This document shows positions 4,840 through 39,775 of a stretch of 64,000 nucleotides of DNA, piece by piece. Position numbers and translations under genes: made by a program. The DNA is taken from positions 1-64,000 of the forward strand of contig NZ_JAPMOU010000011.1 in NCBI RefSeq assembly GCF_028858535.1. Direction: 5' to 3'. This stretch comes from Spartinivicinus poritis. Lineage in GTDB: Bacteria; Pseudomonadota; Gammaproteobacteria; Pseudomonadales; Zooshikellaceae. Positions within the stretch are counted from its first letter, which is position 1; every line of letters begins with the position of its first letter. The notes below the pieces were generated by a model. The model was given only the letters and a program-made list of their open reading frames with translations. It made no database searches and was not told the DNA's origin.

Positions 4840-5376
4840 CTAGTTTTCAACATAACAAAAAAACACACCTAACTCATCATCTATTTGCTCATCATCAAGT
4901 CCAATTTCAGGTATATTTGACTGTTTCGTGTAAAAATAGTTTTCTATAGAGCTAAGGCCTTCACCAGCTTCGCATAGACTACTTATATCTATGCTATCAA
5001 GAAAAAAGTACATTTTTTCTGCACCAGCGAACCTGGCTACTTTATTACAAATATAAATAAATTCATTCCTTTGCTCTTTAATATTTTCAAACCGTCTCCA
5101 GGATAAACCATTCAGCTCTAGAGTATTTTTGTAAGTTGTTAATGATATATTCATAGGTCCATCTATCCATACCAATCCTTCCACACTCATTTCTAGTAAA
5201 TTTTTATCATTAAGTTCCTTATCAGCTAAACAGTTTTTCCATTCCCACCCTTGTTTCTTGCCATAGTGATACTGAACTTCAAAATCATTAAATAAACTAT
5301 TTAGCTTATTAGGCAAATTTATAAGATCACTACTGTTGAAACAATGATCAATTACGCAGCTTGTATCGATTGTCAT
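4840..5376 (-). CDS. Hypothetical protein (178 aa) next to ABC-3C locus
   Basis: No family is recognised. The protein is soluble and acidic at the C-terminus (DDEQIDDELGVFF). It lies only 7 bp downstream of the DUF3732 ATPase gene in the same direction, so it is likely transcribed with the ABC-3C genes, and 17 bp upstream of the Sel1 gene. It could be an extra component of that system or the first gene of the accessory block that follows. Confidence 0.55.
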   Translation of the reverse strand: MTIDTSCVIDHCFNSSDLINLPNKLNSLFNDFEVQYHYGKKQGWEWKNCLADKELNDKNLLEMSVEGLVWIDGPMNISLTTYKNTLELNGLSWRRFENIKEQRNEFIYICNKVARFAGAEKMYFFLDSIDISSLCEAGEGLSSIENYFYTKQSNIPEIGLDDEQIDDELGVFFCYVEN

Positions 5377-5383
5377 TGAATGC

Positions 5384-7330
5384 CTAGCTATTTTTTAAAT
5401 GTGAATACCAGTGTTTTGGAATTAGTGCATTATCACCTCTCCACTTTTTGTCAACTATTGCATTTTGAAACCATTCTTCATCTATATCAGCATGGTCAGT
5501 AATGATAACTTGAAGATCAGGATTCAACTCGGAAACCACTTTAAAAATCCACTTAAACATTTTCTTAACTGCTTGCCTATCTTCATCTTTTTTAATTTCT
5601 TCTAATTTCCCAAGAACTGCTTTGTCAGAAGGAAAGTAAACCTGAGTTGGTTGATCAAAAACTATAAAGTTACATACAGGCCTCTTCTGCTTAATGAACC
5701 ATTTAGCTAAAGCCAAATAAGTAATTAAGTGATATCCGACCCAATTTTCTCCACTACCCATCCTATATAAAGGAGTTCTGCCATTTGGTGTTTCAGCAAC
5801 AACAGTTAATTTAGAAATATCAAGTCTAATTGGGTTTTCACAATGCTCAAGTTTTAACTCTCTAGCCCAATTTGTCATATCAACTGCAACACAGCTAAGC
5901 TGTGACTCTAAAACTTCTTTTAATGTTTCTGGGTCTAACTTTTTTTCAAGCTCATCTATTTGGTCACCAAGTATTTTCAATTTATTTTGAAGGGGTATAG
6001 TATCTCTACTCCACTCAATTCCTTCAAGGTATAAAGATATTCTTCCCACGACACGGGATCTTTTATCACCTAACATTTCTTTCTTTATAATGCTCAATTC
6101 CTGATTTTTTAGAACATCGATAGATGTGCGTACTTTTTTAATATCTTCTGCTAGCTTAACATCTTCACTTTTCAAACTCTCCAAGTAAGAGTTTATTCTT
6201 GGTTTATTTCTTGAAATATTTTCAAGCTTATTATCTAGACTTTCAATTGATGACAGTATCAGATTTTCTACCTTATTTGTATTTTCATGTTCAACTTCAC
6301 AAATAGGGCAAGCAGAGGATGTCGAAAAATTTTTATATATTCCAATTGACTGCAATCTATATGACTGTTCATTTAATTCACTTTCATATCCATGAATTGA
6401 TCCAGCATATTCTTTAGCTGCATTAATTCTATATCTTAATGATCTTTTCAACTCTTTTAAGGAATCATACTGTTTTTGAAGTTTACTAAGTTTTTCTTCA
6501 TCAAAATCATCATTTTCTGTATTAGATGGAATCCAGTTATTTAGTCTCCTAAGCTCTACTAACAATTCATCATCACTGAGAGTATGCTCTCCTTTATATA
6601 TACCGATACTTGATGCTTCAGCAAGCAAGTTAAAGCCTTTTTTTAAGCCCTCACCTTTAATACTATCAATTTCCTGTATTCTCTTAATAACTTTATTTTT
6701 TTCTCTTCTCAGATTACGTAATTTAGCCATTTCAGAAAATCTTGTATTATCTGCAGCCCCCATAAAAAATGGCAATGTATCCTTTATAGTTTGAGGAATG
6801 TATGGTTCTGACTGCCTATGAAATAGTGTTCTTTTTGCAGCCACCTCATCTTGACCTTGAAACAAATAATAAATTGAGTGGTTAAAATCAATATTAAAAC
6901 TTGACCGAGTTTGCTCCTTAGGCACCTCGGTAACTTGCTCTGGAATTCCTATTTTCCTTGTTAAAAACTCAACAACACCATTTATATTATCTGATTTTTT
7001 TAGTTCATAAGCTTCTGGCATTATAACTGATTTTTCAATTAACATATGGCATGCGGAATTAGACTTATATTTACTAACTGGTGCAGCCCTAGCTATAAAA
7101 ACCTGCACGTCAGAAAGCTGTAACAACAAAGCGTACCAACTCACAGTTTTGCGAATATAGCCTTCAGCAACTGTACACTCACTTGCTCCTAGGCAATACT
7201 CAATTATATCAATTAATGATGATTTACCTTTTTTTGATGCCCCAGTAATAATATTAACCTGAGATGGTTTAAAATCAACATCACGCCGCTCTCCATTTAT
7301 TCCATAAAGTGATATTTTTAAAATTTGCAT
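5384..7330 (-). CDS. DUF3732-type ABC ATPase of an ABC-3C system
   Basis: An SMC/Rad50-like ATPase. Numbered from the start used here: Walker A GASKKGKSS at residues 30-38, a long central coiled coil interrupted near residue 340 by CPIC (a zinc-hook-like CxxC), an SGENW signature near 524 and Walker B FIVFDQPTQ near 555. This layout fits the DUF3732 ATPases of ABC-three-component conflict systems. The frame is open 21 codons further upstream, but the ATG at 7330 begins the conserved MQILKISLYG and lies 2 bp after the previous stop, so it was preferred. The ATPase is expected to sense nucleic acid and license the nuclease-like partner. Confidence 0.85.
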   Translation of the reverse strand: MQILKISLYGINGERRDVDFKPSQVNIITGASKKGKSSLIDIIEYCLGASECTVAEGYIRKTVSWYALLLQLSDVQVFIARAAPVSKYKSNSACHMLIEKSVIMPEAYELKKSDNINGVVEFLTRKIGIPEQVTEVPKEQTRSSFNIDFNHSIYYLFQGQDEVAAKRTLFHRQSEPYIPQTIKDTLPFFMGAADNTRFSEMAKLRNLRREKNKVIKRIQEIDSIKGEGLKKGFNLLAEASSIGIYKGEHTLSDDELLVELRRLNNWIPSNTENDDFDEEKLSKLQKQYDSLKELKRSLRYRINAAKEYAGSIHGYESELNEQSYRLQSIGIYKNFSTSSACPICEVEHENTNKVENLILSSIESLDNKLENISRNKPRINSYLESLKSEDVKLAEDIKKVRTSIDVLKNQELSIIKKEMLGDKRSRVVGRISLYLEGIEWSRDTIPLQNKLKILGDQIDELEKKLDPETLKEVLESQLSCVAVDMTNWARELKLEHCENPIRLDISKLTVVAETPNGRTPLYRMGSGENWVGYHLITYLALAKWFIKQKRPVCNFIVFDQPTQVYFPSDKAVLGKLEEIKKDEDRQAVKKMFKWIFKVVSELNPDLQVIITDHADIDEEWFQNAIVDKKWRGDNALIPKHWYSHLKNS

Positions 7331-7332
7331 GA

Positions 7333-7827
7333 TTATGGTCTTATGCCTAATTGAATAAAAATTATTTCTGTAGTTGGTGCATGGGAAAACCATTTCCCCA
7401 AAAATCTTGAAGCTCGTAAGGAGTTTTTCATATGTACACTTTTATTAAATAGAGATGGTATCTTCGACAACTTACTATCTTTTAATAATAAAGTTCCACT
7501 TTTTTTCATAGTAATCAATTCTTTATGCAGCAAAAAGCTACATGCAGATTGAACTATGGGAATGTAAGATTCAGCTTGCTCTACTAGATCTATCAGTACA
7601 CCTTCATTTTTGGTTACCCACGAAGAAATCGATGTGCTATATTGTTTTGGTAATCTATGAGAGATTGTGTTAGACATTGCCATTGGTACAACAACAAATG
7701 GAAGAGCACAATGCATTCCTTCTACTTTATTTTCAACATACTCCCTTATACATGAATACAATATAAATCCAATATAAGCAGGATTATATAATCCAACTTC
7801 TTCCTCAGAATACTGTTGTTGTTCCAT
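7333..7827 (-). CDS. ABC-3C middle component
   Basis: A 164-residue protein between the effector and the ATPase, with LYNPAYIGFILYSCI near the N-terminus and a mostly helical body ending in FIQLGIRP. Size, position and the NPA..G..L opening match the small middle components of ABC-three-component systems, which are thought to be winged-helix adaptors bridging the ATPase and the effector. This assignment rests mainly on context. Spacing to the effector gene is 14 bp and to the ATPase 2 bp, so the three are one operon. Confidence 0.7.
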   Translation of the reverse strand: MEQQQYSEEEVGLYNPAYIGFILYSCIREYVENKVEGMHCALPFVVVPMAMSNTISHRLPKQYSTSISSWVTKNEGVLIDLVEQAESYIPIVQSACSFLLHKELITMKKSGTLLLKDSKLSKIPSLFNKSVHMKNSLRASRFLGKWFSHAPTTEIIFIQLGIRP

Positions 7828-7841
7828 GAATTACTATTCTC

Positions 7842-9035
7842 TTAACAATTTATATTACTTAGTAAGCTAGAAAAGTCTGGATGCCAACCAATAGCCATCT
7901 TATCAGATAGTGTGTGATATGTGCCACGAGCAACATATGCAGACTTAAATCCTGGTCTTATAGGCAAAATTGAATTTTTTTGGCACTCTTTATATAACTC
8001 TCGACCATATTTTATTTTTTCATTATCATCTTGCTCCAAGTCATAATCCATTTCTATTAAAACTGATTGGTTTATCCATTCATCTTTCAGTCTGTTTAAA
8101 TATTTTTGTATTTCTCCTGGCTTTACCAAGCCTTCCCTTGACCACTTAGACCTTTGTTCATATGCTTTATAGTAATTAATTACTGCAACTCTTATTGCTT
8201 TACTATTCAACCCTATTAGACTCAACTGCCTCATAAATACTCGACTTTCATCCTCTATTTCAATCTCATCAGGATTATGTTCGTCAAAATCAGCAGGTAG
8301 ATTTCCAGGTAAAAACTGGGTTCGCAAGTCATCAATATAATCAACCAACTCCCCGATATTAATTCCATTTTGATCTGTATCTTGCATAACTTCAATTACT
8401 TTTTTAAACCATATCCCTTCTAATCTTGATGTAAATGCATTTATATGACTTGCAGATACACTTAACCTTATTTGTTTTTTTATTTTTTCTTCTACAGTTA
8501 GTATATCTGGAGACTTAGTAATAACATATACCGAACTAAGCAGTATTTCCTGTTCATTTTCACTTAACAAGTTAAATGATACATATGCTTTTTTATTTGC
8601 TATACTACTTTTTTCCTTGGAAATTTCCCTCATATTTTTCAACGCTTCTGATACATTTCTATTTTTTTCTTCAGTACCCAGATAGCTTGCAATACTATTT
8701 GGTGCGGCCTTCTCTGTAGTCAAAAGAGTAAATGATGCTTCTTCGATCAAGCAGCTTTCTTTTTGTATCATTTCAGACCAAACCCTTATAGTTTTCCATA
8801 AGTCTGGACTTCTATCAGTTAAATTACCAGGTGAACCATGGTATTTAGCCTGCAGTAATTCGACAGGATTTCCTTTTTCTTCAAATGCTATATCATCGAG
8901 CTTTTCAATAGAAATAAAACAATCATCCGGATCATTAGCATCTGCTATTTTTTTCAGTGCTAGTAATAATGCATATCTTACTTGATAAATATAACCTAAC
9001 ATCGAAGATGTTGCGTCAAATACACTATTCTCCAT
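7842..9035 (-). CDS. ABC-3C effector with N-terminal nuclease-like domain
   Basis: The N-terminus (GYIYQVRYALLLAL, then SIEKLDDIAF and ELLQAKYH) carries the pattern of a DUF4297/Cap4-like PD-(D/E)xK nuclease: E44, D47/D48, E59 and Q62-x-K64 as likely catalytic residues. The C-terminal half (about 230-397) would be the ABC-3C C-terminal region that docks to the partner proteins. By analogy the product is a DNA-degrading effector released when the ATPase detects invading nucleic acid. It is the first gene of the operon; the upstream 9036-9280 region is AT-rich and would contain the promoter. Confidence 0.75.
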   Translation of the reverse strand: MENSVFDATSSMLGYIYQVRYALLLALKKIADANDPDDCFISIEKLDDIAFEEKGNPVELLQAKYHGSPGNLTDRSPDLWKTIRVWSEMIQKESCLIEEASFTLLTTEKAAPNSIASYLGTEEKNRNVSEALKNMREISKEKSSIANKKAYVSFNLLSENEQEILLSSVYVITKSPDILTVEEKIKKQIRLSVSASHINAFTSRLEGIWFKKVIEVMQDTDQNGINIGELVDYIDDLRTQFLPGNLPADFDEHNPDEIEIEDESRVFMRQLSLIGLNSKAIRVAVINYYKAYEQRSKWSREGLVKPGEIQKYLNRLKDEWINQSVLIEMDYDLEQDDNEKIKYGRELYKECQKNSILPIRPGFKSAYVARGTYHTLSDKMAIGWHPDFSSLLSNINC

Positions 9036-9931: not shown

Positions 9932-10178
9932 CTGGAAGTACAGGTTTAGCTGAGTGCTCTGCACTGTGGTTAGCGTTGCGCTGACCGAGGGGAATAGTCC
10001 TCCAACTTTCAAGCACAATGACGACTGTTTCAGCCCCACTTCGACGGTAGTACCCCTATTTGTCGTTGCGGTCTGGAACAACCACGCCGATCGGGGTTCC
10101 GCACGACAAATAGGGGTACTACCGTCGGTGGGATCAGTGAGTCGTCAATGTTCCAGGTTTAGTAGTAAACCCTTCCAG
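9932..10178 (+). ncRNA. Predicted retron msr-msd RNA
   Basis: All parts of a retron RNA appear in order. The a1 arm CTGGAAG-TACA-GGTTTA (9932-9948) pairs with the a2 arm TAAACCCTTCCAG (10166-10178): 13 bp with a TACA bulge. Directly after a1 is G9949 in TTTAGC, the position and context of the branching guanosine in known retrons (TTAGC in Ec86). Three msr hairpins follow: AGTGC/GCACT (9953-9965), GGTTAGCG/CGCTGACC (9968-9986) and GAGG/CCTC (9987-10002). The msd is a very long hairpin: 10015-10026 with 10140-10151, CCCAC/GTGGG (10035-10039 with 10128-10132), a perfect 25-bp stem (10042-10066 with 10103-10127), a 1-base bulge and GCGG/CCGC, with a 27-base loop. It lies upstream of the operon containing the RT, on the same strand. 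No covariance model was run. Confidence 0.8.
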
Positions 10179-23606: not shown

Positions 23607-24026
23607 ATGCCTCAAAATATTCAACAAACCTTTTGTCTGCTTAAATCTGAAGCTCATTTGCTAGGAAAGCAAAGCTATATTAAATCACGGATTGAACAGA
23701 GTGGCTTTACCATCACCGAAAAATGGTCAGTTCGACTGACTTTCGGTGATGTTTTCCGTATGTATCAAGGCTGGATACCCCGCATTGCCACCGTATTACG
23801 CCTCCCTCCCCTATTTAAACTCGACATGTACTTGCTAGAAGGCCAAGATGCTATACAACAGATGTATCACTTAAAACATCAAATACGCCACGAGATTTGG
23901 GGCTTTAAAAATAAAAAAGGCGGATTTTTACACGCCCCTGACTCTGTTGAAGAAACTAAACAACACTTGGAAATCATTGAAAGACGGGTATTGAAAAAAT
24001 ACTGTCCTGTTAATGATTGTTTTTAA
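23607..24026 (+). CDS. NDK-like (nucleoside diphosphate kinase fold) protein
   Basis: The 139-residue length equals that of nucleoside diphosphate kinase, and the main landmarks align: K13 in FCLLKSEAH (NDK IKPD lysine), a helix LEGQDAIQQM (NDK LEGENAV), and H109 in FLHAPDS, matching the phosphorylated catalytic histidine in NDK VHGSDS, followed by the SVEE...LEII helix. Some nucleotide-contact positions are altered (no clear GATNP loop), so substrate or activity may differ from housekeeping NDK. It starts 2 bp after the RT stop, so translational coupling is likely. Roles as nucleotide supplier or toxin are both open. Similarity is by eye. Confidence 0.65.
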   Translation: MPQNIQQTFCLLKSEAHLLGKQSYIKSRIEQSGFTITEKWSVRLTFGDVFRMYQGWIPRIATVLRLPPLFKLDMYLLEGQDAIQQMYHLKHQIRHEIWGFKNKKGGFLHAPDSVEETKQHLEIIERRVLKKYCPVNDCF

Positions 24027-38488: not shown

Positions 38489-39775
38489 TCAGGGTGTAGG
38501 AAAATACTTGGCTGTTTCAAGACCAATCAGGCGCTCAATATCACATAGAAACCGGTGCCCCTTCTCAGCCACAGTTTGAGGCGTGTCAGCCAGCAGAATT
38601 ACATGCCCCATAATACTGACATTGCCTTTGTAACGAGCTACTTCTTTTCCTGCTTCAATCCTCAAGGTATGGTGAGAAATCTCATAGGTATTCAGCAGCT
38701 CATACAGTGACTGCGGCTGGAACGACTCCACCACAACACCGCCCTGCCGGGCAGCCACTGCCAGGGTGATACCTGCATTATGAAAACCTTTATCATTGAT
38801 GGTAAGAGGTTCTCCAAGGTGCAGGCGAATCAAGTGCTCAAAGGCATCCTGATCGGTTTGCATCTGGTACATGACTGGCGACACGCTCCCCATCATGCGG
38901 GCATTAATTTCCACCAGAATCGGCCCTTGCCCAGTCATTAGTAGTTCCACATGGTACAGCCCAATGCTAATACCCAAGGCGTAGAATACCTGTTGCAAGT
39001 AATCCTTCATGGCATGTTGGGCTGATTCAGACAGGTCTGATGGCATCACAGCCGCAAGTTCCAGCAAATCGTCGTAGTGAGCTCGGTAACGGGTGGTGGT
39101 AGCGTAGAACATGACCCGACCATCTCGAACGACCACTTCTGCTGAATGCAAACTGCCTTCTACATATTGTTCGACGATATACTCCCTAGCAACCAGTGCA
39201 TCCATACCAGGCGTATTGCGCCGATCAGCCGCCAACTCCTGAATATACTGATCAAAATCAGCTTGTGTGTGGCAAATGGCAGAAAACTGCTTGGCAAAGC
39301 CTCGTACAGGCTTAACCACAAATGGCAGGCTCAGATGTTTAGGGCCGTTGACTAGTTGTTCTTCTAAGAGACATTCAAAATCCGGTGTGGGAATGCCATG
39401 TTGTTGTAGCTGTTCCCTCATTTGATGCTTAAATACAGCATTTTTCAGGCTACCCAGAGCCGTATAAGGAGTACCCAGCCGTTCAGCAGCCTGGGCTGCA
39501 GGTAAAATACCACTTTCAGAAGTACTAAGTACCGCATCAATGGGGTGCTTCTCATGCAGCTGATCTAGCACTGGCATCAAGTCTTCCGCTTCCAGTGTAG
39601 CCACCTCCAGATAATGGTCCACATGGGCGGGCACTGCCGGGTTGCTAGACAGAATGTTATAAATGCTGGCAGATTGCGTCGGTCGAATAAAAGTCACCTG
39701 ATGCCCAAGACGGTGCGCCGTGGCAAAAGCGTTTAGTCCCGTTAGGGTACTATCGATAAACACAAGGTGCGCCAT
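38489..39775 (-). CDS. ATP-grasp ligase of the phosphonate cluster
   Basis: A carbamoyl-phosphate-synthase-like/ATP-grasp protein. The N-terminal pre-ATP domain reads VFIDSTLTGLNAF; the nucleotide-binding region includes LPFVVKPVRGFAKQF, VEQYVEGSLHSAEVVV and the metal-binding PILVEINARMMGS. Such enzymes join a carboxylate to an amine via acyl phosphate, often making dipeptides. The ATG at 39775 has an AAAGGA ribosome site; the frame is open 23 codons further. In this operon it could couple phosphonoalanine or aminoethylphosphonate to an amino acid. Confidence 0.8.
   Translation of the reverse strand: MAHLVFIDSTLTGLNAFATAHRLGHQVTFIRPTQSASIYNILSSNPAVPAHVDHYLEVATLEAEDLMPVLDQLHEKHPIDAVLSTSESGILPAAQAAERLGTPYTALGSLKNAVFKHQMREQLQQHGIPTPDFECLLEEQLVNGPKHLSLPFVVKPVRGFAKQFSAICHTQADFDQYIQELAADRRNTPGMDALVAREYIVEQYVEGSLHSAEVVVRDGRVMFYATTTRYRAHYDDLLELAAVMPSDLSESAQHAMKDYLQQVFYALGISIGLYHVELLMTGQGPILVEINARMMGSVSPVMYQMQTDQDAFEHLIRLHLGEPLTINDKGFHNAGITLAVAARQGGVVVESFQPQSLYELLNTYEISHHTLRIEAGKEVARYKGNVSIMGHVILLADTPQTVAEKGHRFLCDIERLIGLETAKYFPTP

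Follow-up and report, generated by a model that had tools for sequence, protein, structure and literature searches.

The window, a stretch of 64,000 nucleotides from a contig of Spartinivicinus poritis, carries a four-gene retron operon in which the reverse transcriptase (RT) gene comes last, and the question it raises is which RNA this RT copies. A complete msr-msd-like RNA had been drawn from the sequence upstream of the operon (hereafter, the original prediction). We conclude that this interval, 9932-10178, is very likely the msr-msd RNA of a type XIII retron: it is folded, linked to the operon and covarying among homologues, and an msDNA is its predicted product. The large four-gene type XIII operons would thus gain a likely RNA template, far from the RT-adjacent area of search.

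The type XIII operon and its surroundings

The HEAT-ARM, SWIM and RT proteins of the operon all match PADLOC models of type XIII (Table 1), a classification that reportedly goes back to Mestre et al. 2020, and the two HEAT proteins match two different HEAT-ARM_XIII models. In HEAT2, Pfam HEAT_2 scores above the cut-off and the WD40-type matches score below it. A profile of the SWIM protein searched against solved structures gave nothing better than E 0.2. Two weak segments, both below the cut-off, are BRCT-like in HEAT1 (E=0.0048) and WGR at the C terminus of the SWIM protein (E=0.0012). Since BRCT and WGR domains both occur in DNA-damage proteins, the msDNA hairpin may be a ligand of these segments.

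Table 1. Features of the retron locus and its neighborhood (window positions unless a contig is named)
Feature	Position	Strand	Evidence and remarks
Lamassu-like operon	4840-9035	-	LmuA, LmuC and LmuB matches (ABC-3C CTD7, MC3, DUF3732) and a 178-aa ORF
a1 arm	9932-9948	+	CTGGAAG 9932-9938 and GGTTTA 9943-9948, with a 4-nt bulge at 9939-9942; sequence, MFE, covariation
Predicted priming guanosine (2'-OH branch site)	9949	+	In TAGC, directly after the a1/a2 helix
msr hairpins	9953-9965, 9968-9986, 9987-10002	+	MFE; alignments A2, A3
msd hairpin	10015-10151	+	MFE; covariation
msd base helix	10015-10017/10149-10151 and 10019-10026/10140-10147	+	MFE
msd lower stem	10035-10039/10128-10132	+	MFE
msd perfect 25-bp stem	10042-10066/10103-10127	+	Followed by the apical region; MFE
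a2 arm	10166-10178	+	Sequence; MFE; covariation
HEAT1, HEAT-ARM_XIII, 1097 aa	10281-13574	+	PADLOC PDLC02921, 1203 bits
HEAT2, giant WD40-like and HEAT-repeat protein, 2186 aa	13571-20131	+	PADLOC PDLC02919, 2014 bits
SWIM_XIII protein, 625 aa	20376-22253	+	PADLOC PDLC02972, 651 bits
Retron reverse transcriptase, 430 aa	22312-23604	+	PADLOC RT_XIII, 563 bits
Second type XIII retron, subtype B (L026)	Own genome contig 23, 80500-93500		RNA between SWIM and RT

Retron RTs are marked by the motifs NAxxH, VTG and YADD. Across eight aligned sequences, NA..H (N198, A199, H202), TG (T359, G360) and YADD are invariant, and a search with the RT profile against solved structures placed the Ec86 RT first, with Ec67 and other retron RTs also among the best relatives and Drt2 far lower. 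Judged by these motifs, the RT_XIII match and the best PDB relatives, the enzyme would belong to the retron clade. The same evidence bears on the proposal that the RNA is the template of a DRT-type defence RT, making repetitive or protein-primed cDNA, rather than part of a retron. Some defence RTs do use neighboring structured RNAs, but the match to PADLOC retron RT models, the retron motifs and the distance to Drt2 make this highly improbable. Viral contigs searched with the RT alignment contained more distant RTs, the best of them 40% identical (among the best 80 of 101).

Directly upstream of the retron, and divergent from it, lies a Lamassu-like operon, and the two form a defence cluster; this neighbor is a circumstantial hint of an anti-phage role. 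On the other side, the RT gene is followed by a 139-aa ORF (23607-24026, plus strand) with no PADLOC or Pfam match, and among the 15 loci searched a relative was found only in L022 (94% over 87 aa).

Fold and conservation of the RNA

The interval 9932-10178 has a minimum free energy (MFE) of -121.2 kcal/mol, compared with a mean of -76.2 (sd 4.9) for shuffled sequences (z -9.1), and none of 200 shuffles was as stable. All the elements that had been described are in place: the a1/a2 arms, a TTTAGC (9945-9950) containing G9949, three msr hairpins and a long msd with a perfect 25-bp stem. The retron-like order and placement of the guanosine likewise hold up, the full order being present and the TAGC at the branch site, beside the a1/a2 helix, being invariant in 17/17 subtype-A RNAs (alignment A5). 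Two details had to be qualified. The 13 pairs proposed for a1/a2 (7 + 6) are possible by sequence, and the inner ones are supported by covariation among homologues, but only the outer seven form in the window's own MFE structure. There, a GGTTTA at 10156-10161 competes with a1 by pairing with 10166-10171 (the TAAACC of a2), and the branch site is enclosed by a short helix of 3 bp (9941-9943/9950-9952). As for the msr hairpins, all three are found in the window and the shape of the first two is conserved (alignments A2 and A3), but the third is missing from the seven A3 sequences that come from another family.

The RNA ends 102 nt before the first gene, HEAT1, and about 12 kb before the RT gene, so the proximity to the RT that is usual for retron ncRNAs, though not strictly defining, is not seen here. 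In a pattern scan of the window, no promoter was detected upstream of the RNA and no terminator downstream of it; the sole terminator-like site lies upstream of a1. Rfam 15 gave nothing above its cut-off; a sub-threshold match to mir-624, on both strands, was dismissed as an artefact of the long hairpin.

Homologues were sought among relatives, in a phylum sample, in a class sample and in families, and by one scan of genome contigs. RNAs of subtype A, whose gene order is HEAT1-HEAT2-SWIM-RT, were located by their flanking motif, and 17 intact ones were obtained from 15 genomes (the window, L022, L023, L024, L025, L035, L048, L049, L093 with two, L094, L095 with two, L216, L217, L218 and L219). 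HEAT1 follows the RNA in 14 of the 15 loci, the contig of L217 ending first. Set aside were antisense self-matches of the model, L096 and L221 (in which contig ends truncate the RNA), L220 (whose copy has decayed) and L092 (whose contig stops short of the RNA). The start of L096 and the end of L221, which come from one genome, are two parts of one RNA whose assembly broke inside the msd palindrome; such RNAs may therefore be missed in draft genomes. L220, at a contig end, is a decayed msr-msd that has lost most of its msd stem, and tblastn found no retron gene on its contig.

A covariance model (R1) was built with a hand-written structure from seven RNAs of another family, present in five genomes. 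It detects the window RNA at E 7e-24 and, up to an E of 1, nothing else in the window. HEAT1 is present in five of 95 relatives; R1 recovered these five carriers at E <1e-21, and one more genome at a borderline E of 0.008. In a second family, 11 of 63 genomes were matched. In eight genomes of this family a SWIM gene of subtype A was recognized by score (and also by tblastn where the sequence was retrieved), and seven of the eight carry an R1 match, that in G979 being a fragment at a contig end; in the eighth, G989, the contig ends before the RNA. As for the other four matches, HEAT1 adjoins in G977 and G1004, the contig ends in G1009, and G991 holds a decayed copy. The model, tested in this way, thus finds the type XIII RNA in other genomes.

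Folding and covariation had been proposed as the check on the original prediction, and both speak for it. In the 17-RNA model alignment, 97.4% of 1012 cells are paired. Two-sided changes occur in 43 of 60 pairs (shuffled mean 33.0), with examples in the msd stem, in the base helix and in a1/a2. The covariation score reaches 0.725, and shuffles give 0.180. Four of five covariation measures were reached by 0/500 shuffles; the fifth, further pair types, was 90 against 84.2 and was reached by 62/500. The inner a1/a2 helix (model helix 1) is paired in 93.2% of cells, with two-sided changes in four of its eight pairs, and the two outermost a1/a2 pairs of the model fail in 4 and 5 of 17 sequences. 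Because the model starts at 9939 (it spans 9939-10173), the outer seven a1/a2 pairs do not enter this count. Alignment A5 was fitted to the structure under test and kinship of the sequences inflates cell counts, so these figures are not to be read as probabilities; when the structure is slid by 1-3 columns, the score collapses to at most 0.154, with 35-40% of cells paired. A3, a MAFFT-only alignment of seven RNAs from one family, gives the same picture as A5: RNAalifold predicts 74 pairs, 32 of them with two-sided changes. Both the a1/a2 pairing and the long stem, whose loss in homologues would have spoken against the original prediction, are kept.

Long perfect palindromes can be the debris of mobile elements, and the hairpin might accordingly be a genomic palindrome, a mobile inverted repeat or a chance fold. 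Such an origin is scarcely credible here: the structure is conserved together with the operon across several families, no second copy was found in the window's own genome, Rfam offered no family above cut-off, and exact 20-mers of the window's msd stem (one stem of 17 tested) had no match in IMG/VR. The last result also led us to reject a phage origin of this stem. The conserved flank motif had no exact match in IMG/VR either.

The genome to which the window belongs holds one retron each of subtypes A and B; a third, more distant RT (L003; 31% identity to the window's RT) lies on its contig 43 at 38674-39417. Subtype B, with the order HEAT-SWIM-RT, has a single HEAT protein and a longer RT, and its RNA sits between SWIM and RT, directly before the RT gene, in 11 loci (contig 23 of the same genome and ten others). 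These RNAs combine a long msd with an a1/a2 helix that comprises 12-19 pairs when G-U is counted; of the 55 pairs obtained from their MAFFT alignment, 34 show two-sided changes. In 10 of 11, a CCTTGC faces GAAGG, with its G placed as G9949 is; the motif is absent in L029. R1 gives two weak matches among them (E 2e-4 and 1e-3). In a third gene order the RT lies upstream of HEAT-SWIM (L098, L099, L101, L104-L109 and L111; L226-L230). A motif search, used without a prior check on known positives, found no RNA in L226-L230, L098, L099, L101, L102, L104 and L106.

Variable stems and tandem RNAs

We compared stem sites with all other sites in nine pairs of RNAs. Between the window and L022, whose RTs are 97% identical, 8 of 59 stem sites differ and 0 of 176 elsewhere. 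The excess in the stem recurs between L094 and L048 (8/60 versus 6/172), between L094 and the first and second copies of L093 (11/60 versus 10/172 and 30/60 versus 14/172), between the two L093 copies (33/60 versus 15/172) and between the two L095 copies (35/59 versus 21/173). It is absent between the window and L035 (8/59 versus 23/172), the window and L023 (0/59 versus 1/176), and L024 and L025 (1/60 versus 2/167). A weak lead toward a common stem motif is the sequence CCCTA, found in 8/13 stems (p below 0.001 against mononucleotide shuffles) and in 7/12 when dinucleotide shuffles were used (p 0.024); shared ancestry is still contained in these figures.

The L095 and L093 copies are complete msr-msd pairs in tandem ahead of one operon (L095:2162-2741 and L093:13958-14542), with largely different stems, which suggests that the msDNA made by a single operon may be of more than one kind. 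These tandem units with different stems go beyond the original prediction, as does the placement of the RNA beside the RT in the sister subtype and 12 kb ahead of it here. A bolder reading, which we offer tentatively and think rather unlikely as it stands, is that the RNA scaffold stays fixed while its msd stem is an exchangeable cassette of hypervariable sequence for a DNA hairpin, that a single RT works on one RNA or on several in tandem, and that conflict with phages drives the stem diversity, which would serve to evade, or to trap, those phage proteins whose target is the msDNA.

Under loose criteria, 10 of the 17 RNAs have a terminator-like hairpin behind them, where shuffled downstream sequence gives 4.9%; both L095 copies and the second L093 copy are positive, the first L093 copy is negative and the window only weakly positive. 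A stricter scan of the window, L095 and L093 found one after the second L095 copy only, and after neither L093 copy. Such hairpins, together with the 102 nt that separate the RNA from HEAT1, would suit a leader or attenuator that regulates the 12-kb operon in cis and is not a cDNA template. Nevertheless, the terminator-like hairpins lie past a2, so that they bound the RNA and are not part of it; the RNA displays all retron elements in their order, and the G next to a1/a2 is invariant; complete copies stand in tandem in two genomes; and the equivalent RNA of the sister subtype lies between SWIM and RT. We therefore regard a leader in place of a template as very unlikely, and a regulatory role besides that of template as possible.

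The manner in which the msd template changes is also informative. In the long msd stem (30 model pairs) we counted 229 two-sided and 0 one-sided cells, with 6 unpaired and 5 gaps. The msd helices together comprise 862 Watson-Crick, 0 G-U and 17 non-standard cells in the 17 RNAs, compared with 111, 13 and 9 in the a1/a2 helix, which would remain RNA and where 10 of the 13 G-U cells fall in one pair common to related sequences. When the RNAs are folded freely by MFE, chance pairs in loops add to the counts, and G-U amounts to 22/891 in the msd versus 62/451 in a1/a2 and msr; for subtype B the figures are 20/481 versus 36/335 (10 of 11 RNAs; L029, lacking the motifs used, was left out). RNA stems usually evolve via G-U. 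A stem that changes as paired letters without G-U steps points to function as DNA, and the missing G-U fits a need to pair as DNA. The same pattern could arise if repair of the genomic palindrome copied one arm onto the other, without selection on msDNA.

Proposed mechanism and relation to known retrons

We propose that the RNA is very probably copied into small branched DNA by an anti-phage retron. The RT, although encoded 12 kb downstream, would bind the msr-msd RNA, prime on the 2'-OH of G9949 and copy back from about 10165, opposite which the cDNA is predicted to start, towards about 10015. The resulting branched molecule of RNA and DNA would contain a perfect DNA hairpin at least 25 bp long. 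With less certainty, and by analogy, the complex of RT and msDNA may keep the HEAT/WD40/SWIM(-WGR) proteins inactive; a phage that disturbs the DNA hairpin might then release them, and the infected cell would be killed or arrested. Given the tandem copies with different stems, what the msDNA hairpin senses becomes testable through stem swaps.

This scheme is close to the usual model, in which a toxic effector is held in check by RT, ncRNA and RT-DNA until phage triggers it (PMC12548924). Retron RNAs are likewise described as insulated by a1/a2 and primed at the 2'-OH of a conserved guanosine (PMC8989520). In the literature searched, the only paper that contains both 'retron' and 'type XIII' uses the latter as a PADLOC label for a Variovorax strain (PMC11953036), and no paper could be recognized, by title and abstract excerpt, as dealing with the RNA of a type XIII retron. 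PADLOC reports msr-msd covariance models of its own (PMC9252829), and for this reason the type XIII RNA, most likely in its subtype-B form, may perhaps already be known.

The likeness of the operon to retron type XIII lies in its HEAT-ARM, SWIM and RT matches. It differs from the type XIII sister subtype in having four genes, a 2.2k-aa WD40-HEAT protein and an RNA placed before the whole operon. The hairpin layout of characterized retron RNAs resembles that of the window RNA; with Ec86 (Retron-Eco1) and others it shares a1/a2, an adjoining priming G, an msr and an msd. Unlike theirs, it lies about 12 kb from the RT, its msd stem is long (25 bp here, and 30 consecutive Watson-Crick pairs in L048 and L049) with a highly variable sequence, and two genomes have tandem copies of the whole RNA. 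Finally, the msDNA of Retron-Eco2 resembles the predicted one in its G-linked 2',5' branch near inverted repeats (PMC12405507), but that retron has an RT-Toprim fusion and no HEAT or SWIM partners, unlike the operon of the window.
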